A stretch of 48,608 nt of DNA, from the NCBI GenBank assembly GCA_029564595.1, contig JAKQPS010000191.1, forward strand, positions 1 to 48,608. Direction: 5' to 3'. The notes beneath the pieces were generated by a model, which searched no databases, was not told the DNA's origin, and saw only the letters and a list, made by a program, of their open reading frames with translations. Origin of the DNA: a bacterium. Its GTDB lineage: Bacteria > UBP15 > UBA6099. Of this stretch, positions 38,977 to 47,765 are shown piece after piece (within the stretch, counting starts at the first letter, position 1; the number at the start of each line of letters is the position of its first letter). The position numbers were made by a program, and so were the translations under genes.

Positions 38977-40296
38977 ATGAGACCTGATGCTCAGTGGACG
39001 CTTAATCACGCGCCGAAATACGGCCGTTTCGGCGCGCCGCGAACAATTTCGCCTTTGGAAACGGCAAAAAAACTTAAACCTATCTTTGATTGTTTCGAGG
39101 TCAGAAGCAAAAAAGACATATATCGAGTGGATAGATGTGGCGTGCCCGCTTATGTCGTGAAGCGAACCGGAGAACATGGCCGCGAGGATGCTTTCTACAA
39201 GGGAAAAGGATATGCGGATATCGACGCAAGAGTAAGCGCCCTTATGGAAGCCGTGGAACGGTATAGCGCGGAACGCTATGACGGCGAAATCGTATGCGGC
39301 ACATTCGATCAGATTAAAACCAAGGGGCCGGCGGTCAATCCCGATGATTTGGGGCCGCCGCGCGTCGATGATGCGTATTCGAAGAATTGTGTCGTGGAAT
39401 GGGCGCAAGGCTTCGACCTAATTCAGCAGCGCTCTACATTCGTGCCGCTAAATCTTGTCATATATCCTTATAAGCGCGGCCCGGAGCTTTTTCGCGCCGG
39501 GAGCGTTGGGTTGGCATCGGGCAACACTATGGAAGAGGCGATTTCACATGCTTTGTGCGAGGTCATTGAGCATGACGCGCTTGGCGTGTCCAATGTTTAT
39601 AATCCTCATGCTTTAGAAATAATCATTTGCAAACCTGACGGTTCGATAGACGAAGAAAGGGATCGAGATAAGCCGGATGACATAACTCCCGGGTTTGCGT
39701 TTCCGCTTATTGATCCGTCAACTTTTCCGGCGCGCGCCGCGAAGATAGCAAAAAAACTAAACGACGCTGGCCTCGCATTTTTTGTCAGGAATATTACAAC
39801 GGATATAGGCATTGCTTCGGTTCGCTGTATCGTCGTGGAAAAGAATTCAGACGGCGCGTTTTATGCGTTCGACGGCGCGGGTTCCCATCCCGACGCGGCA
39901 ATAGCGTTGCTCAGAGCGCTCAGCGAAGGCGCTTTAAGCCATTCGGCGTCAGTATGGCTGCGGAACAAAGGCCTATGGCCTCCTTTTACACCGTTGACTA
40001 TGGGCCCGCATAAACTATATGGTTATGGCCGTGTTTGTCCGTTTTCCGATGTGCCTTCTTACAAACATAAAACAGTCGATGAAGATATACGCCTCATGCT
40101 CAAAAAACTTCAGACCGCAGGCCTGAATCAGGCAGTCGCAGTGGATTTGACAAAGCCGGAGACCGGCTTTCCCTCGCTTAGAATTATTGTTCCCGGAACA
40201 GAATATTTGTGTGAAGAACCCGGAAAACATCCATATGGTTTGCGCGCGAATAATGCGAAAAATCAACGTTTCAAGCAGTTCGCTGAATTACTATAA
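38977..40296 (+). CDS. Stand-alone YcaO-family enzyme
   Basis: 439 residues. YcaO proteins use ATP to activate backbone amides, making azolines in RiPP peptides or, with TfuA or in methanogens, thioamides. The ATP-binding pattern is present: SALMEAVERYSAE (S87, E91, E94, R95) and SGNTMEEAISHALCEVIEHDA (181-201), plus the C-terminal VDLTKPETGFPSLRIIVPG. The N-terminal LETAKKLKPIFDCFEV and KGYADIDARVSA layout is like the archaeal McrA-thioamidation type. The C-terminus ends in FKQFAELL, without the Pro-rich tail of azoline-forming cyclodehydratases. No TfuA, E1/Ocin-ThiF, dehydrogenase or transporter lies adjacent. GC is visibly lower than in the left part of the window, suggesting transfer. 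Substrate unknown; short frames just upstream are candidates. Confidence 0.88.
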   Translation: MRPDAQWTLNHAPKYGRFGAPRTISPLETAKKLKPIFDCFEVRSKKDIYRVDRCGVPAYVVKRTGEHGREDAFYKGKGYADIDARVSALMEAVERYSAERYDGEIVCGTFDQIKTKGPAVNPDDLGPPRVDDAYSKNCVVEWAQGFDLIQQRSTFVPLNLVIYPYKRGPELFRAGSVGLASGNTMEEAISHALCEVIEHDALGVSNVYNPHALEIIICKPDGSIDEERDRDKPDDITPGFAFPLIDPSTFPARAAKIAKKLNDAGLAFFVRNITTDIGIASVRCIVVEKNSDGAFYAFDGAGSHPDAAIALLRALSEGALSHSASVWLRNKGLWPPFTPLTMGPHKLYGYGRVCPFSDVPSYKHKTVDEDIRLMLKKLQTAGLNQAVAVDLTKPETGFPSLRIIVPGTEYLCEEPGKHPYGLRANNAKNQRFKQFAELL

Positions 40297-41338: not shown

Positions 41339-41367
41339 TTGACAGGGTATCTGTTAGCCGATATAAT
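41339..41367 (+). promoter_or_regulatory. Perfect consensus promoter of the MerR-like gene
   Basis: TTGACA (41339-41344), exactly 17 bases, TATAAT (41362-41367): a full sigma-70 consensus. Transcription would start near 41374, about 28 bases before the ATG. Such a strong site normally needs a repressor, or marks recently arrived DNA; the MerR-like product itself may bind here. Confidence 0.8.
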
Positions 41368-41402
41368 AACTGTAAAGGCTTACGGCTATGGAGGGTTGTT
41401 TC

Positions 41403-41918
41403 ATGTCTAAACCGATTAAGGAATGGCTGACGCAGGAAGAGCTTGAGGCGGAGCTTAAGCGAGCGGGCGTTGACCTCGCAGAGGAGCGCAGCAATCGGAA
41501 TGTTCGCCGAGTTCTTTATTATTACAGGTACAAAGGGCTGATCACGCCGCCTATCCGAAAAATGGTCGGCAAGCGGCTCACTCTTTTTTATCACAACATA
41601 GTGGTCAGCGAATTTCTCACCATCCGCTTGCTCAAAGCGCGGGGAAAGTCTCTTGATGATATAGCCGAATACATGAATAAGGGGGCGAGGGCGGAATTCG
41701 TCTCGAGCGTCTGCGACGCCGTGCGGGAAGTTGAGGCGCGTTTCGGATTTGAGCAAGACACGGACATGATGACGATGTCCGCGCTGAGCAAAGACGGTCA
41801 GTTCATCTACCTGAAAGCGAAGAAGAAAAATGTGAAGGCGATAAGAGAAGCGCTGCGACGGATAGGCTTCGAGCCTGACTCGCTCACGAGCGAAGACATT
41901 GATGGGATGGTGAAATAA
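41403..41918 (+). CDS. MerR-like DNA-binding regulator
   Basis: 171 residues. The segment VRRVLYYYRYKGLITPPIRK...LFYHNIVVSEFLTIRLLKARGKSLDDIAEYMNKG (about 34-93, quoted with a gap) follows the MerR winged-helix pattern: YYxxxGLI.P, a second helix-turn, then LK..G.SLDDI. The C-terminal 75 residues end in a small alpha/beta segment with no Cys cluster or known effector site. An ATG at 41388 precedes the SD (GGAGGG, 41390-41395), so 41403 is the start. First gene of the island; likely autoregulated from the consensus promoter. Confidence 0.7.
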   Translation: MSKPIKEWLTQEELEAELKRAGVDLAEERSNRNVRRVLYYYRYKGLITPPIRKMVGKRLTLFYHNIVVSEFLTIRLLKARGKSLDDIAEYMNKGARAEFVSSVCDAVREVEARFGFEQDTDMMTMSALSKDGQFIYLKAKKKNVKAIREALRRIGFEPDSLTSEDIDGMVK

Positions 41919-42044
41919 AAATTTGCCGTCTAACTGTAAGGGTGTACAAAATAGCAAAGGGTCGATGCCGAGATTGCTTTGAATGCAGTCTTACATTTCA
42001 TATATAAACAAGCAGACAAAATTGATTAAAAAGGAGAATATGCC

Positions 42045-42458
42045 ATGACAGAAGAACTGTACTTGAAAAAGCTCAACTGGTTTAAAGAAAATGAGAAGCC
42101 GGAAGTTGTTCTATTTGTTACGGATTATGAGCCGCGCACAAGAATTGTTATTGCATGGACTAACACCAAGACCACTATGCTAAAAAACATCAGCCCTCTA
42201 AAAACCAACGTCGAAAGCGAAATATGGGATTGGCTATGGCAAAACACGGCATTTTCCTTGGATGAACTCAGGATGAAAAGCTCTGTTTCGTCACTTGAGA
42301 TAGACAGATTGCTCCGGCCTCTTGTGGCAAACAGGCTCATATATCCGGATGGCACGGTGAACTCCTTCGTCCAGCGGTATCTCAGAGAGAGGGTGCTCAA
42401 GCTTTTCGATGCAAAACATAAAACAACCGCAACTAAACGCAATAAAATAGCATATTAG
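42045..42458 (+). CDS. Small protein of unknown function, possible winged helix
   Basis: 137 residues, not recognised. The N-terminal half (to about 50) has alternating beta-like strings (PEVVLFVTDYEP, RIVIAWTNTK). The second half (about 58-120) looks like a winged helix: EIWDWLWQNTAFSLDELRMKSSVSSLEIDRLLRPLVANRLIYPDGTV. The end is Lys/Thr rich. AAGGAGAA lies about 7 bases before the ATG. It stands alone between the regulator and the radical SAM operon, with its own short gaps on both sides (126 and 97 bases). Confidence 0.6.
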   Translation: MTEELYLKKLNWFKENEKPEVVLFVTDYEPRTRIVIAWTNTKTTMLKNISPLKTNVESEIWDWLWQNTAFSLDELRMKSSVSSLEIDRLLRPLVANRLIYPDGTVNSFVQRYLRERVLKLFDAKHKTTATKRNKIAY

Positions 42459-42466
42459 CATCTATA

Positions 42467-42494
42467 TTTACAAAAGCGGGACGAACGATATACT
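42467..42494 (+). promoter_or_regulatory. Candidate promoter of the radical SAM operon
   Basis: TTTACA (42467-42472), 16 bases, TATACT (42489-42494): five of six matches in both boxes. Leader about 55 bases, with AAAGGAG before the GTG start. Confidence 0.5.
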
Positions 42495-42555
42495 AAGAAA
42501 TGGCATCTAAATATTTGTACAATTATTGCAGATGGTTTAAGAAAGGAGCTGAAAA

Positions 42556-43308
42556 GTGAGACTTATCTATGAGCCTAAAGGTCGCGCGCGGGAATATGCT
42601 CCCCTTGCCGCCAACCTGTATACGTCCTGCACACACGGTTGTCTCTACTGCTATGCTCCAAGGTGTATGCAACGGAACCGCGAACTTTTTCACACTTGCG
42701 CAAATGTAAGAAAGAACGCTCTCAAGCTTTTCGCCTCTGACTGTGCGGAATATGCAAAAATGCGACTAACGGAGCCTGTATTGATGTCCTTTGTAAGCGA
42801 TCCATATCAACCTGATGAACTTGAGTTGAGAATCACCCGAAAAGCTCTCGAAATCGCAGCCGAGCACAAAGCGCCGATACAGATATTGACTAAGGGGGGC
42901 ACAAGAGCGATATCGGATTTTCCGCTTCTCGCGGCGACAGGCGCGCAGGCTGCTTTTGCTTGCACATTAACGGTGTGCGATAAATCGTGGGCCGCAAAGC
43001 TCGAACCGCAAGCGGCAGAACCGGAAGACCGGTTGAACGCGTTGAAAGCCGCATATAACGCCGGAATAACCACTTGGGTTTCTTTCGAACCGTCGATTGA
43101 TGAGAAATCAGTTATTGAATTCATCAGATTGTCTCATTCTTATGTTGACCTGTATAAAGTAGGCGCGATCAGCGGCGATAAAACATTGTCCACGATAAGC
43201 AACTGGCGCGATTACGCGTCGAACGTTATCAATGAACTCGAAAAGCATGAAAAGAAATATATCATTAAGAGCGATCTCAAGAAAGAGATGACTCCTAATG
43301 GCGACTAA
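42556..43308 (+). CDS. SPL-family radical SAM protein (phage type)
   Basis: 250 residues. The 4Fe-4S/SAM motif is C25-x3-C29-x2-C32 (CTHGCLYCYAP). Strings such as IYEPKGRAREYAPLAANLY, LMSFVSDPYQP, IQILTKGG and TWVSFEP are those of the spore-photoproduct-lyase-like radical SAM proteins that are common in phages and prophages; their reaction is not known. The start is GTG at 42556 with AAAGGAG at the right distance. Its 3' end overlaps the ParB-like gene by 11 bases, so the two are coupled. Confidence 0.85.
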   Translation: MRLIYEPKGRAREYAPLAANLYTSCTHGCLYCYAPRCMQRNRELFHTCANVRKNALKLFASDCAEYAKMRLTEPVLMSFVSDPYQPDELELRITRKALEIAAEHKAPIQILTKGGTRAISDFPLLAATGAQAAFACTLTVCDKSWAAKLEPQAAEPEDRLNALKAAYNAGITTWVSFEPSIDEKSVIEFIRLSHSYVDLYKVGAISGDKTLSTISNWRDYASNVINELEKHEKKYIIKSDLKKEMTPNGD

Positions 43309-43897
43309 AAACAAAATAAACATTGTTACAATGAGGCTGGAGGCATTGACGCCCGCTGACTATAATCCGCGTAAAATCACGCGATTGGCAAAACGCGGTT
43401 TGAGAAAATCCATCGAGACATTCGGATACGTCGACCCCATAATATGGAACAAACGCTCAGGCAAAATTATATCAGGCCATCAACGGTACGCCACGCTTGT
43501 TGAAATGCACGGAAAGGATTATGAGGTTGAGGTCAACGTGGTTGACGTGGACGATCAGACTGAAAAGGCGATGAATATTGCTTTGAACAATGCAGAAATA
43601 CAGGGAGTCTTCGATTCGGACGCTCTTGATAAATTGTTGCAGGACATAATTGAATTCCCGGAATATATCGATTTGAATTTTGATCTAATACATCCGCAAA
43701 ATCATAATAAACCCGAGATCGGCATCATCAGCAAAGACCCATTATTATATCCTAATTGGATTGTGATAAGATATGACAATTGCCAGCTTGGCGGTAATAA
43801 AATTAAGAGCATCAAGAAAGAAATCGAGAAGACGGGCGCAAAAATGATATGTTCTGAAAACCTAAACGACGAGAAAGAAAAATCAAAACATGCCTAA
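43298..43897 (+). CDS. ParB-like domain protein
   Basis: 199 residues. The N-terminal two thirds match the ParB/sulfiredoxin-like fold: LTPADYNPRKIT (NPR 23-25), SIETFGYVDPIIWNKRSG, and IISGHQRYATL with GHQR at 60-63, the nucleotide-binding box. NIALNNAEIQGVFD is typical of the version that forms the N-terminus of phage adenine methyltransferases. Here that domain stands alone, with a Lys-rich tail, next to a separate methyltransferase-like gene. ParB-like domains bind CTP/ATP and some are nucleases. Role here unknown. Confidence 0.8.
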   Translation: MATKNKINIVTMRLEALTPADYNPRKITRLAKRGLRKSIETFGYVDPIIWNKRSGKIISGHQRYATLVEMHGKDYEVEVNVVDVDDQTEKAMNIALNNAEIQGVFDSDALDKLLQDIIEFPEYIDLNFDLIHPQNHNKPEIGIISKDPLLYPNWIVIRYDNCQLGGNKIKSIKKEIEKTGAKMICSENLNDEKEKSKHA

Positions 43898-44462
43898 GGA
43901 CAACACTGCAAAAGAAACAAAACTTGTGTTAAGAGAAAGCATGCTCCCGGAACACCCCCGTGTGCTTGATTTATTCTGTGGCAACGGCGTTATGTACAGA
44001 TCTCTATATGAAGAGCGCTCTGTCAGATATTTAGGTATTGATAAATCAAAAATATTCAATGCTGAACTTTGTATAAAAATAGATAACGAGAAATGGTTGC
44101 TCAATAACAAAATAGACTGCTTCAATGTGTTTGACATCGACGCATATAGTTCTCCGGGCAAGTATTACAGCCTCATACTGAGCCGCATTGCAGTGATAAA
44201 TGAACCATTAATATTATTTTCGACCGACGGCGCTCTGATAAGTTTCAGAATCAATACGAAGCTTCCATGCGAATATCTTATTTCTGAAGGAATAAGTCCT
44301 GATTTTCAGATACCCGGACTATATAATTATTACGAAGACATTCATTCGACATACATAAAAAAGCTTGAATTGAACTACCCTGTCAAGGTTGATGAAATAA
44401 AAGTCTCTTATAACGACACGAAAACCACAGCATACTGGGGATTCAGATTGTTGCCTGTTTGA
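43890..44462 (+). CDS. Methyltransferase-like (class I SAM fold) protein
   Basis: 190 residues, AT-rich gene. VLDLFCGNGVMY (25-36) is motif I and YLGID (48-51, Asp 51) motif II of a Rossmann methyltransferase. FDIDAYSSP (81-89) takes the motif IV position and recalls the DxDPYGSP box of Trm1-like tRNA methyltransferases, not the DPPY box of DNA adenine enzymes. The rest (IPGLYNYYEDIHSTYIKK) I cannot place. It overlaps the ParB-like gene by 8 bases. RNA or DNA as substrate is open; protein length is at the short end for an active enzyme. Confidence 0.65.
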   Translation: MPKDNTAKETKLVLRESMLPEHPRVLDLFCGNGVMYRSLYEERSVRYLGIDKSKIFNAELCIKIDNEKWLLNNKIDCFNVFDIDAYSSPGKYYSLILSRIAVINEPLILFSTDGALISFRINTKLPCEYLISEGISPDFQIPGLYNYYEDIHSTYIKKLELNYPVKVDEIKVSYNDTKTTAYWGFRLLPV

Positions 44463-44519
44463 ATCTTGAACTGCGTAATAGATGACAATATACGAAGAAT
44501 CGTATTGAAGGGGAATAGA

Positions 44520-44975
44520 ATGAAGAATAGTCAGTCAACACTATTTCCAGAATATGAGGTGAAGAAATATAAAGAACCGGCGCTCGTAAGCGCATGTTTT
44601 CTTGGTATTCCATGCCGATGGCACGGAAGAAGAGCGAAGAAGCGGGATAAACTTATCGAAAAACTGAAAGAGAAATATGTGCTTATTCCGGTTTGTCCCG
44701 AGCAGCTTGGCGGAATGCCGACTCCGCGCACCAGCGAGTACCTGAAGGGGACCGGCGCGCAGGTCCTCGACGAGGGTCTCCGGATTATCGCACCCGAAAC
44801 ATGGGAAGATGTCACAGTCTATCACGTGAAAGGCGCTGAATATGTTCTTGAAATTGCGCGAATAGTCGGAGCGGATGTTGCATATCTAAAAAGCGGAAGC
44901 CCATCCTGCGACAGGGAAGGCGTGGCCGGAGAAGTATTGAAAAGAGGCGGAGTGAAGGTTGTGAAGGTTGGATAG
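44520..44975 (+). CDS. DUF523 / TudS-like desulfidase family protein
   Basis: 151 residues. DUF523 marks: VSACFLGIPCRWHG (C26, C32), PVCPEQLGGMPTPR (C59) and LKSGSPSC (C130). Members of DUF523 include TudS, an Fe-S enzyme that removes sulfur from 2-thiouracil, in which three conserved Cys hold the cluster; this protein has the residues for that. The ATG at 44520 is preceded by AAGGGG; the frame is open to 44466 without an SD. It sits between two radical SAM genes, an arrangement reminiscent of DUF523/YbgA genes next to photolyase in other bacteria. Confidence 0.82.
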   Translation: MKNSQSTLFPEYEVKKYKEPALVSACFLGIPCRWHGRRAKKRDKLIEKLKEKYVLIPVCPEQLGGMPTPRTSEYLKGTGAQVLDEGLRIIAPETWEDVTVYHVKGAEYVLEIARIVGADVAYLKSGSPSCDREGVAGEVLKRGGVKVVKVG

Positions 44976-45025
44976 TACATGGTTTTTAGACGAGGTCGCT
45001 GTCGTCGAACAAAGGTTGAAATCTG

Positions 45026-46204
45026 TTGTTGTCAGATAAACAATTAATAATGGATTTATTTGCATCCGAAAGTCCAAATCGCGGATTGCCGATTGATTAC
45101 ACCCCGGTGAAGGCGCCTTTCTTTGAGCCGGAAAGAATTATTCTGGCAAAGGGGAGCATGGAGACGGAAATCCGGCGGCGATTTGTCGAGTCTATAATTT
45201 CTTTGTATCCGGGGGCGCTGGTTATTGATCGCCGGGACATCCCTCACAATAAAGTGTCTTTTGATGAAAAGAATCCGGTTGAAAGGCTCGCCGCAGGCAA
45301 AAAGACTCTTGTTTTTGGAGAACACAAAAGCGCAGTCCGGTTTAGCGACGAGGAAGGCAACACTTGCCCCAACTACTGGCACTTCTCGCCTTATGGATTC
45401 TGTCCTTATGGATGCAAGTATTGCTACCTTGCCGGAACGCTTGGCGTGTGGCATTCGCCGACGGTAAAGATTTTCGTGAACATCGAGGAAATTGTTGAGC
45501 AGATTGATAAAATCGCGAAAAAACTTTCCTCGCCAACCGCTTTTTATGTCGGTAAACTCCAGGACGGATTGGCTCTCGATCCGCTTACCGGGTTCTCGAA
45601 GGTTCTGGTTCCATTCTTCGCGGCGCATGAATTCGCGAGACAGGTCATTCTCACGAAATCCGACAGCGTTGAAAACCTGTTGAATCTGGAACACAAAGGA
45701 AAAACCATAGTAACATGGAGCCTGAACCCGCCTGAGATCGCGGAGAAATACGAAGAGAATGTTCCTTCTATTGAGCGTCGCATGGAAGCCATGAAAAAGT
45801 GCGCCGCTGCGGGGTATCCGGTCAGGGCGGTGATTATGCCGGTGATCCCTGTTGATAACTGGGAGACGCTATACGGACCATTCGTGAAAAAACTTGTTTC
45901 GGAAATTCCGCTTGAAAGACTTACCATCGGTGGAATCTGCATATATAAAAATGCGCGCCGCCTGATGGAAAATAAAATTGGGGCGAAAAACTGTATCTCA
46001 GGACAAATTGACAAAGCAACCGAATCCGAAGACGGTCGCGCCCGGTATTATTCAGAAACAAGGCATAAGATGTATCACCTGATCTCAAGAATAGTGCAGG
46101 AAACAAACCCTGAAACAACAGTTGCCCTGTGCCTCGAAGAGCCGGATGTATGGGAGAAACTTGGTCTGACAAATAATCTTGGCCGCTGCAATTGTGTACT
46201 TTGA
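45026..46204 (+). CDS. Second SPL-family radical SAM protein
   Basis: Up to 392 residues. Radical SAM motif C126-x3-C130-x2-C133 (CPYGCKYCYLAGTLG), then VKIFVNIEEI and VTWSLNPPEIAEKYE, as in spore photoproduct lyase relatives. True SPL uses an extra Cys a little over 40 residues after the cluster as hydrogen donor; I see none here before about residue 263, so UV-lesion repair by the SPL chemistry is doubtful. The C-terminus ends CNCVL. The start is uncertain: TTG at 45026 or 45029 (AAAGG upstream) or ATG at 45050 (no SD). 50 bases after the DUF523 gene. Confidence 0.82.
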   Translation: MLSDKQLIMDLFASESPNRGLPIDYTPVKAPFFEPERIILAKGSMETEIRRRFVESIISLYPGALVIDRRDIPHNKVSFDEKNPVERLAAGKKTLVFGEHKSAVRFSDEEGNTCPNYWHFSPYGFCPYGCKYCYLAGTLGVWHSPTVKIFVNIEEIVEQIDKIAKKLSSPTAFYVGKLQDGLALDPLTGFSKVLVPFFAAHEFARQVILTKSDSVENLLNLEHKGKTIVTWSLNPPEIAEKYEENVPSIERRMEAMKKCAAAGYPVRAVIMPVIPVDNWETLYGPFVKKLVSEIPLERLTIGGICIYKNARRLMENKIGAKNCISGQIDKATESEDGRARYYSETRHKMYHLISRIVQETNPETTVALCLEEPDVWEKLGLTNNLGRCNCVL

Positions 46205-46310
46205 GATTCTGGCAATTAATTGATTACGAGATAAATGAACATATATAATGAAAACAGCTTTTGTTTTCATTCAGTCGGAATTCGGATGTTTTCGATGGAG
46301 TTTGCACATA

Positions 46311-47765
46311 ATGGTCAGAAATATGAATCTCAATGAACTGAAAAAACTTGTTGCTGGTGGAGAGTCCGAACGCACGGAGTTCAAGAAATCCACAGGACAG
46401 CGGACCGAAGCCGCGAAAACTATCTGCGCCATGCTGAACAGTCTTGGAGGTTTTCTCCTATTCGGGGTCATGGACAATGGTGATATTACCGGCCAGCAGG
46501 TTTCCGGAAAGACTTTGGAGGATATCGCGGAAGAAGTGCGGCGCATCGAGCCGCCAGCACTGCCAGATATCGAAACTGTACCCGTGAAAGGCGGCAAAGC
46601 AGTTATTGTCGTTCGTGTCCCCGGCGGCGGAGGTCCATATACATACGACGGCAGAGCATACATGCGGCACGGCCCAACGACTCGCCGGATGCCGCAACAA
46701 CGTTACGAACGCTTGCTTCTGGAACGAATGCACGCCGCCAACCGATGGGAAAATCAAGTTGCACATGATTTCAAAATCGGCGATCTCGACAAAAACGAGA
46801 TATTCAGGACCGTCGAAGAGGCAGTCCGCAGAAACCGATTGGATGATCCCGATACCCGTAACACCAAGGAACTTCTCAGGGGTCTCGGTCTCCTCAATCA
46901 GGATGAACTATTGAACGCGGCTGTCGTTCTTTTTGCAAAGCCGGATCGTTTGCTGCCCAATTATCCGCAATGTCATTTGAAGCTGGCTCGTTTCAGAGGA
47001 ACTTCGAAATCTGAATTCATAGATAACAGACAGGAGTATGGGAATGCTTTTGATTTGCTCCAGAGAGCGCAACGATTCCTGCGCGATCACCTGCCAGTGG
47101 CCGGTCGCATCGTGCCTGAACTTTTCGAGCGCATTGATGATCCATTGTATCCGGTGCTTGCTCTCCGTGAAGCCATTGCAAATGCGATCTGTCATCGTGA
47201 CTATAGCATCGCAGGTGGTGCCGTGAGCATTGCCCTTTTCGACGACCGCTTGGAGATATCCAGTACGGGTATTCTCCCGTTTGACATTAAACCCGTCGAC
47301 CTTTTTCGGCCGCACGCATCCCGACCATGGAATCCACTAATAGCGCAGGTGTTCTATCGCCGCGGTATCATTGAAACATGGGGACGCGGAACAATCAAAA
47401 TGCGAGATCTCACCGTTGCGGCGGGACTGCCCAAGCCGGAAATCGAGTGCCCGCCAGGAGAAGTCGTTGTTCGTTTCCGGCCTTCCTCAGGCCGGTCTCA
47501 TATTCATAAGATATCTTCTGGGGCAGAGTCAAAAGCAGAGTCGGGGGCAGAGTCAAAAGCAGAGTCGCTCAGAAGATCAATATTGTCTCTTCTATCCAAT
47601 GGTCCGCTGTCAAAATCAGAAATTGCGTCGGGGCTTGGAATTAATAAAATATCTGGAAATTTCAATGATACAGTACGTAATATGATGAAAGAAGGTTTCA
47701 TCGAATATACGATGCCGGAAAAACCGCAGAGTCGCCTGCAAAAGTATAAACTGTCAGCAAAATAA
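46311..47765 (+). CDS. AlbA_2 / HATPase ATP-binding regulator (RecG-like annotation type)
   Basis: 484 residues. N-terminal AlbA_2 (Schlafen-like) domain: ESERTEFKKSTGQ, ICAMLNSLGGFLLFGVMDNGDITG. A central HATPase_c_4-type domain has REAIANAICHRDYS (from 286) as N box and ETWGRGTIKM as G2 box. A linker with a 24-bp tandem duplication (GAESKAES twice) leads to a C-terminal winged helix (about 425-484). These proteins are often called 'RecG-like' but are probably ATP-dependent transcription or defence regulators. The ATG at 46311 (GGAG 10 bases upstream) fits better than 46248; 46323 is also possible. Last complete gene of the island. Confidence 0.85.
   Translation: MVRNMNLNELKKLVAGGESERTEFKKSTGQRTEAAKTICAMLNSLGGFLLFGVMDNGDITGQQVSGKTLEDIAEEVRRIEPPALPDIETVPVKGGKAVIVVRVPGGGGPYTYDGRAYMRHGPTTRRMPQQRYERLLLERMHAANRWENQVAHDFKIGDLDKNEIFRTVEEAVRRNRLDDPDTRNTKELLRGLGLLNQDELLNAAVVLFAKPDRLLPNYPQCHLKLARFRGTSKSEFIDNRQEYGNAFDLLQRAQRFLRDHLPVAGRIVPELFERIDDPLYPVLALREAIANAICHRDYSIAGGAVSIALFDDRLEISSTGILPFDIKPVDLFRPHASRPWNPLIAQVFYRRGIIETWGRGTIKMRDLTVAAGLPKPEIECPPGEVVVRFRPSSGRSHIHKISSGAESKAESGAESKAESLRRSILSLLSNGPLSKSEIASGLGINKISGNFNDTVRNMMKEGFIEYTMPEKPQSRLQKYKLSAK
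47520..47567 (+). repeat. 24-bp perfect tandem duplication inside the AlbA/HATPase gene
   Basis: The unit GGGGCAGAGTCAAAAGCAGAGTCG occurs at 47520-47543 and again at 47544-47567 (split here only in description; the unit is 24 bases and encodes GAESKAES in frame). It lengthens the linker before the winged helix and could change in copy number by slippage. Confidence 0.85.

Follow-up and report, generated by a model that had tools for sequence, protein, structure and literature searches.

A five-gene block of radical SAM, ParB-like, methyltransferase-like and DUF523 genes related to a conserved phage cassette

The window analysed here is a stretch of 48,608 nucleotides from a bacterium of the UBP15 lineage (contig JAKQPS010000191.1), in which five open reading frames follow one another on the forward strand between positions 42556 and 46204. 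They encode a radical SAM enzyme of the PA0069/DUF5131-like type with a CxxxCxxC motif (g1, 42556..43308), a ParB-like protein made of an N-terminal ParB domain and a conserved tail (g2, 43298..43897), a small class I SAM methyltransferase-like protein with a D-x-D-A-Y-x-x-P motif (g3, 43890..44462), a DUF523/TudS-like protein with three cluster cysteines (g4, ORF 44466..44975) and a radical SAM enzyme resembling spore photoproduct lyase, SPL (g5, 45026..46204). The coordinates bear out the original prediction of five co-directional genes, the first three overlapping, with 11 bases shared by g1 and g2 and 8 by g2 and g3. Spacing is looser further down: judging from the sequence, g4 probably starts at ATG 44520, which follows a GAAGGGG and agrees with its relative at another locus (L175), and this start leaves 57 bases between g3 and g4, with 50 between g4 and g5. 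The G+C content is 40.5% in g2 and 37.7% in g3, and higher, at 47–48%, in g1, g4 and g5.

Upstream, on the same strand, lie genes for a MerR-type regulator (41388..41918; PF13411) and for a 137-aa protein to which no function is assigned (42045..42458); 5' of the MerR-like gene, at 41339..41367 of the forward strand, a pattern scan found the sigma-70 promoter TTGACA-17-TATAAT, whose agreement at 12 of 12 positions is a consensus match and not proof of use. Downstream, a gene encoding a SLFN/AlbA_2 plus HATPase protein (46248..47765, forward strand; PF04326, PF13749) is preceded by a promoter-like sequence at 46220-46249 (10 of 12 consensus positions in the pattern scan), and is probably a separate accessory gene. 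A sister species (G003) has the MerR gene, the 137-aa gene and g1 in the same order (L038); g2–g5 are not beside g1 there, and a search of that genome for g3 and g5 homologues found none, so that it retains just the MerR–137-aa–g1 part, together with a decayed second copy elsewhere (L039). In the same species, a type III restriction system and a PglZ-type gene, both named by sequence likeness only, adjoin g1.

The g1 gene starts with GTG, with AAGGAG ahead of it, and its product is recognised by PF04055 and NF033668. It is most closely related to radical SAM proteins of the PA0069/Rv2578c type and, weakly, to DUF5131 (PF07505, 22.2 bits, under the cut-off of 28.9); the PADLOC profile PDC-M41B, for which no cut-off is given, is matched with 20.5 bits (E 6e-5). 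The CxxxCxxC motif is present in 130 of 134 members of the g1 family, and g1 groups with phage radical SAM enzymes partnered by ParB and methyltransferase. Cellular relatives have a TcmP gene directly upstream, with 4-base overlaps; the TcmP scores 129 bits against TIGR04474 (cut-off 53) and bears a winged helix-turn-helix (wHTH) of the DNA-binding type.

The ParB-like, methyltransferase-like and DUF523 labels originally given to g2, g3 and g4 were upheld by PHROG, a structural model and PF04463, respectively. The g2 protein falls in phage ParB-like families (PHROG 9353, E 8e-35; PHROG 620, E 2e-29) and its ParB_N score is under the Pfam cut-off; the assignment also draws on the alignment, on the profile match to ParB N-domains in the PDB and on a model. 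Where partition ParB has the CTP-binding GERR, g2 has GHQR, and many relatives have GHxR or GNxR. Moreover, neither the domain search nor the model revealed an HTH in this protein of 199 aa with a short tail, which has no room for the DNA-binding domain of partition ParB. Neither of the two marks of partition ParB/CTPase, GERR and the parS-binding HTH domain, was thus found in g2. As for g3, its sequence matches are weak and its AlphaFold model is confident (pLDDT 90.6), with a class I methyltransferase fold and the motif I glycines present; G31 is almost invariant in the family alignment. Foldseek returned class I methyltransferases of a generic kind only, so no substrate can be read from the fold. 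No match to TIGR04474 (TcmP) was obtained with g3 and its phage relatives, the domain search detected in g3 no counterpart of the C-terminal GMT-like wHTH of TcmP, and a profile comparison gave no support for a shared origin of the two proteins, the match being not significant (6% probability).

The g4 protein (169 aa) matches PF04463 with 79.5 bits (cut-off 34.7), and the alignment to TudS (PDB 6z92) places its cluster cysteines at SAC, VCPE and SPSC. Like TudS and RudS, whose substrates are thiouridine or thiouridine monophosphate (PMC10611767, PMC11417400), it belongs to DUF523 and has the three cysteines of the cluster, and a desulfidase role is predicted for it. The fusion of DUF523 to DUF1722 seen in RudS is absent from g4, in which PF04463 is the only domain. 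Its closest relatives elsewhere directly follow a PP-loop/ferredoxin gene, some within phage-like runs, which points to sulfur chemistry in a fuller version. A DUF523 protein 72% identical to g4 is found in an unrelated genome (G061).

The g5 protein shares with spore photoproduct lyase the fold family, the CxxxCxxC motif (here CPYGCKYC) and the overall sequence, as judged from PF20903 (115.6 bits, cut-off 27) and the alignment to PDB 4fhc, SPL being also its nearest solved structure. It differs in its score against the equivalog TIGR04070 (146.5, below the cut-off of 400), in a C-terminal CNC motif, in a context that is phage-type and linked to ParB/TcmP, not to sporulation, and, above all, in the residue corresponding to the hydrogen-donating cysteine 140/141 of SPL: FEAACTSD of 4fhc, with Cys140, aligns to FYVGKLQD, with Lys in all three g5 sequences compared. 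The narrow SPL-repair reading was dropped, this catalytic cysteine being missing. Two SPL-like radical SAM enzymes had been predicted; the description stands for g5 and, in the narrow sense, fails for g1, given its PA0069-type kinship, and neither enzyme has the catalytic cysteine. Orthologues of g5 with 57–58% identity occur in G061 and in one further genome (G046). More broadly, of 24 loci with a g5-type enzyme in bacterial chromosomes, 14 have a ParB-like gene immediately 5' of it, four of these with 4-base overlaps; in 3 further loci a TcmP methyltransferase lies next to the enzyme or is fused to it.

An alignment-based scan provided 69 distinct viral loci with a g1-type radical SAM enzyme, the window being excluded from this count; single-sequence viral scans with g1, the Dulem methyltransferase and g5 gave no confirmed relatives. 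Within four genes of the enzyme, a g3-type methyltransferase was found in 37 of the 69 loci, a ParB in 39 and both in 33. The methyltransferases were concentrated near the enzyme (37 of 461 genes within four positions versus 0 of 433 further out; p about 1e-11). Among the 33 loci with both partners, 28 are wholly on one strand, 30 have methyltransferase and ParB adjacent or fused (fusions at L111 and L141), and 21 have a gene of the terminase-large family within four genes; on the circular genome of Dulem virus 36, ParB, methyltransferase and radical SAM genes lie just ahead of the terminase. By these profiles, 31 of the 69 loci have neither methyltransferase nor TcmP, and several of them end at contig ends. 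A motif search detected PP-loop genes in only 2 of 636 nearby genes, so that the usual set does not include one; a search of the window's genome for a PP-loop homologue of the G061 type found none.

The radical SAM, ParB-like and small class I methyltransferase genes are therefore a conserved phage cassette, usually placed just before the terminase, and the viral neighbourhoods agree with the original prediction that the first three genes are typical of phages or prophages. Some loci, like the one in the window, add to the cassette a DUF523 [4Fe-4S] protein and a second, SPL-like radical SAM enzyme. In G061, a single run (C729) holds a methyltransferase, two ParBs, a PP-loop gene, DUF523, a radical SAM gene, a g5 orthologue and a terminase-like gene, with which the run ends. 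The clustering of g1–g5 is more than chance, since the same families recur jointly across many unrelated loci; homologues that never co-occur would have spoken against the grouping, and co-occurrence was found in phages, in G061 and in cellular g5-type loci. The set has a mosaic look in the window, where it lies outside any recognisable prophage, and this copy was probably captured or is part of a mobile island.

The reading that we favour, at about even confidence, is that of a phage-derived module modifying nucleic acid, most likely DNA bases, in which the ParB-like protein directs the methyltransferase and the radical SAM enzyme(s). Base modification would agree with the position near the terminase, with the ParB precedents and with the fold of the methyltransferase. 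The ParB-like protein would hold or target DNA, as has been proposed for its relatives in Dpd, Dnd and CmoX. Using S-adenosylmethionine, the methyltransferase would act on a base; the radical SAM enzyme(s) would then employ a 5'-deoxyadenosyl radical to take hydrogen from that base, from one beside it or from an adduct; and the [4Fe-4S] cluster of the DUF523 protein might serve to remove sulfur or to transfer it. The outcome would be a hypermodified base shielding phage DNA, and the window copy may mark or defend host DNA. The ParB-like DpdB takes part in 7-deazaguanine DNA modification (PMC12839542), DndB is a ParB-superfamily precedent in Dnd DNA modification (PMC10853773), and a ParB adjoins the DNA C5-carboxymethyltransferase CmoX (PMC12783734). 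Like the window set, these systems, which occur in phages or mobile islands, combine DNA-modifying enzymes with a neighbouring member of the ParB superfamily. The window set differs in using radical SAM proteins and another methyltransferase, and no TGT/DpdA, DndA-E, CmoA or CmoX/C5-methyltransferase is found among the annotated genes at 41388-47765. Location alone does not define the chemistry, since phage ParB domains by the terminase also accompany ordinary DNA methyltransferases.

The original prediction had also left room for lesion repair, and a UV-response operon, in which g5 reverses photoproducts and g4 strips sulfur from thiouridine, would suit the structural proximity of g5 to SPL, the TudS-like g4 and the MerR-like gene upstream, as RudS genes often share a light-responsive operon with photolyase and LitR regulators of the MerR type (PMC11417400). 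The hypothesis is weakened by the missing catalytic cysteine, which makes strict lesion repair unlikely; g4 is also without DUF1722, with which DUF523 is partnered in RudS, and the terminase and methyltransferase neighbours do not suit repair. We likewise regard as improbable a set acting on tRNA, where g3 would methylate guanine like Trm1, g4 would remove thio groups and RNA bases would be the targets of the radical SAM enzymes. The D-x-D-A-Y-G-x-P motif of g3 does recall Trm1, and the TudS/RudS substrates agree with such a role, but the sub-threshold TRM1 match of a g3 relative is just 12 bits, and the tight linkage is to ParB and terminase, both DNA-handling. Moreover, the ThiI match in the window's own genome covers only 34 positions, which, as weak evidence, makes a 4-thiouridine pathway doubtful.

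A host defence system against phages, akin to the PADLOC candidates PDC-M30/PDC-M41 (TcmP plus radical SAM), would account for the pairing of cellular g1 relatives with TcmP (PDC-M30A), for the weak matches of g1 to PDC-M41B and of g3 to mad2 of MADS, and for the restriction and PglZ-type neighbours in the sister species. We give it a low probability: the PDC entries are computational candidates, a toxic effector or nuclease is absent from the set, and phage genomes are the majority context of this variant. The window set is like the TcmP pairs in that a g1-family gene is translationally coupled to a methyltransferase-like partner; unlike them, its methyltransferase, as in phages, is much smaller, without wHTH and of unsupported homology, and a separate ParB-like protein is added. 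Finally, the deviating G+C of g2–g3 and the solitary g1 of G003 suggest that g1–g5 may not work as a single unit in this genome. A full mosaic of independently useful genes in a variable island, without joint function here, would also explain the decayed copy in G003; it seems very improbable, because homologues of g2, g3, g4 and g5 with a radical SAM gene share one terminase-linked run in G061 and the ParB, methyltransferase and radical SAM genes are strongly associated in phages.

Returning to base modification, to our knowledge radical SAM chemistry has seldom been documented in phage DNA modification, and our literature search on this gene combination, TcmP and PDC-M30/M41 found no functional study. 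We tentatively propose, as a possibility somewhat short of probable, a widespread new class of DNA modification in which a ParB guides an SPL/PA0069-like radical SAM enzyme and a methyltransferase, of the small type in phages and TcmP in cells, towards a hypermodified, possibly sulfur-linked base. The coupling of SPL-like radical SAM, ParB-like and methyltransferase genes, across phages and many bacterial lineages, would provide concrete gene sets in which to look for new DNA bases, and it would offer a function for TcmP ('three-Cys-motif partner') and for many non-sporulation SPL homologues.

G+C drops from about 57% in the first 38 kb of the window to 42–49% in its last 10 kb, which encode on the plus strand, in this order, a MerR-like regulator, a 137-aa protein, the five-gene set and an AlbA_2/HATPase protein (46248–47765, +), directly downstream of the fifth gene. 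A YcaO cyclodehydratase-type gene (38977–40296) lies at the left edge of this low-G+C region, and the genes sampled at 22–38 kb were ordinary chromosomal ones. Within the set, the radical SAM gene g1 (42556–43308) overlaps the ParB-like g2 (43298–43897) by 11 bases, and g2 overlaps the methyltransferase-like g3 (43890–44462) by 8; the DUF523 gene g4 probably starts at the ATG at 44520, and is therefore separated from g3 by a 57-base gap, while 50 bases lie between g4 and g5 (45026–46204), a radical SAM gene related to spore photoproduct lyase (SPL). Around the set, the window yielded neither a terminase nor any other phage structural gene.

Genes g1–g3 constitute a phage module. In the phage Dulem virus 36, ParB, a methyltransferase relative (28% identity to g3) and a relative of g1 (36%) are contiguous and immediately precede the terminase, which lies beyond the origin of the circular record. 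Viral contigs were scanned with a profile built on a g1 alignment, in which three of the five query sequences came from phage loci with the module already known, the remaining viral loci being picked up through g1 alone; of 145 relatives, 80 were retained. With genes called by a simple script on metagenomic contigs, many of them short, and with methyltransferase (E 0.01) and ParB (1e-4) profiles whose training loci include the loci counted here, a g3-type gene lay within four genes of the g1-type gene in 37 of 69 distinct viral loci, ParB in 39 and both in 33; beyond four genes, g3-type genes were 0 and ParB genes 2 of 433 (Fisher p ~1e-11 and ~6e-10, respectively). Where both partners were present, they were adjacent or fused in 30/33 loci, all three genes were co-stranded in 28, and terminase-large families occurred within four genes in 21. 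A single reading frame spans methyltransferase and ParB in two contigs (L111 and L141). A further ParB/radical SAM combination was seen in another viral contig (L049:586–4067), where terminase is preceded by a DNA methyltransferase, ParB, a second radical SAM-like protein and a radical SAM enzyme resembling the g1 family.

The AlphaFold model of g3 (pLDDT 90.6) has a class I methyltransferase fold; Lys11, Arg15, Asp82, Asp84 and Pro89 are invariant in an alignment of 32 relatives, and the motif D-x-D-x-[YFWC]-x-x-P occurs in 37 of 40 sequences. g2 is a ParB N-domain with GHQR replacing GERR and a conserved tail, and no HTH was found in it. g4 is TudS-like and retains all three TudS cysteines. 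g5 belongs to the SPL family, yet has Lys at the position of Cys140, and its C-terminal CNC motif is common to its orthologues.

The closest cellular relatives of g1, in Syntrophaceae, Desulfobacterales, Lentisphaerae and other groups, sit downstream of a gene of the 'three-Cys-motif partner' (TcmP) type, and the two frequently overlap by 4 bases. For one locus, L056, TcmP was confirmed by TIGR04474 (129 bits against a cut-off of 53), and PADLOC assigns this protein to the defence candidate PDC-M30A. In the tree, the TcmP-partnered enzymes make up a starred group and g1 falls among phage-type enzymes, the deeper branches around it being weakly supported. Since homology between g3 and TcmP was not demonstrable by profile comparison, we offer TcmP as an analogue of g3 and not as its family. 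An AlbA_2-like gene was also observed downstream of a TcmP–radical SAM pair (L066).

The sister species (G003) retains the MerR–137-aa–g1 stretch, with 83% identity in g1, and no g3 or g5 homologue was found in its genome. Downstream of g1 it carries genes that, from reading of the sequences, look like a type III restriction-modification system together with one of PglZ type (L038:10800–19959, G003:C38), apparently a defence island. A decayed second copy of the 137-aa–g1 stretch, in a different context (L039:9100–9741, G003:C7), suggests that the cassette moves. This partial cassette and decayed copy, together with the lower G+C of g2–g3 relative to the rest of the set, suggest a mosaic, mobile locus.

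Similar company surrounds g4- and g5-type genes elsewhere. A 7.2-kb contig of genome G061 carries, in order, methyltransferase, ParB, ParB, PP-loop/ferredoxin, DUF523 (72% to g4), radical SAM, a g5 orthologue (57–58%) and a gene read as terminase-like, for which Pfam gave no family above cut-off; its other radical SAM enzyme is of the g1 superfamily (E 2e-16 to g1), in a different subtype. The g5-type gene also adjoins methyltransferase, ParB and terminase-like genes in G046 and G060. The PP-loop gene, whose product has a C-terminal ferredoxin-like cysteine cluster and 62–75% identity between distant genomes, lies directly 5' of a DUF523 gene resembling g4 in each of the three genomes having both, G046, G030 and G061 (loci L175:2544–4198, L201:7465–9121 and L202:8164–9797, not in the order of the genomes), and the two look like a sulfur-handling pair. 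A viral contig (L198) has a DUF523 gene 73% identical to g4, with a radical SAM gene nearby. Among 24 cellular loci with g5-type enzymes, from many families, 14 have a ParB-like gene, mostly of ~320 aa, immediately upstream on the same strand (L161, L163, L166, L168, L172, L027, L029–L032, L034, L036, L169, L171), with a 4-base overlap in four, and three others have TcmP upstream of or fused to the enzyme. Fusions include TcmP with an SPL-like enzyme (719 aa, L176:4451–6607, G063:C223) and two SPL-like domains in one 735-aa protein (L026:1501–3705, G046:C96). From these counts and the G061, G046 and G060 contexts, the coupling of SPL-like enzymes to ParB or TcmP is, as judged from gene neighbourhoods, general; a literature search returned no paper describing the ParB-like/SPL-like pair.

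The evidence consists of the linkage of the genes, their location in phages, and the folds and motifs of the proteins, from which we infer the enzyme steps: ParB would position the enzymes on DNA, a base would be the target of the methyltransferase, that base or one next to it would undergo radical chemistry by the radical SAM enzyme(s), and DUF523 would deal with sulfur. ParB-superfamily companions are present in DNA modification as DpdB (PMC12839542), DndB (PMC10853773) and in CmoX phages (PMC12783734). The DNA-binding type wHTH domain of TcmP fits DNA as substrate, the TcmP and ParB findings being of sequence and neighbourhood only. That the set serves repair, RNA modification or host defence are all live rivals. 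We give any specific product a lower probability than the general reading, by which the five genes have about an even chance of being a DNA-modification module in the broad sense.
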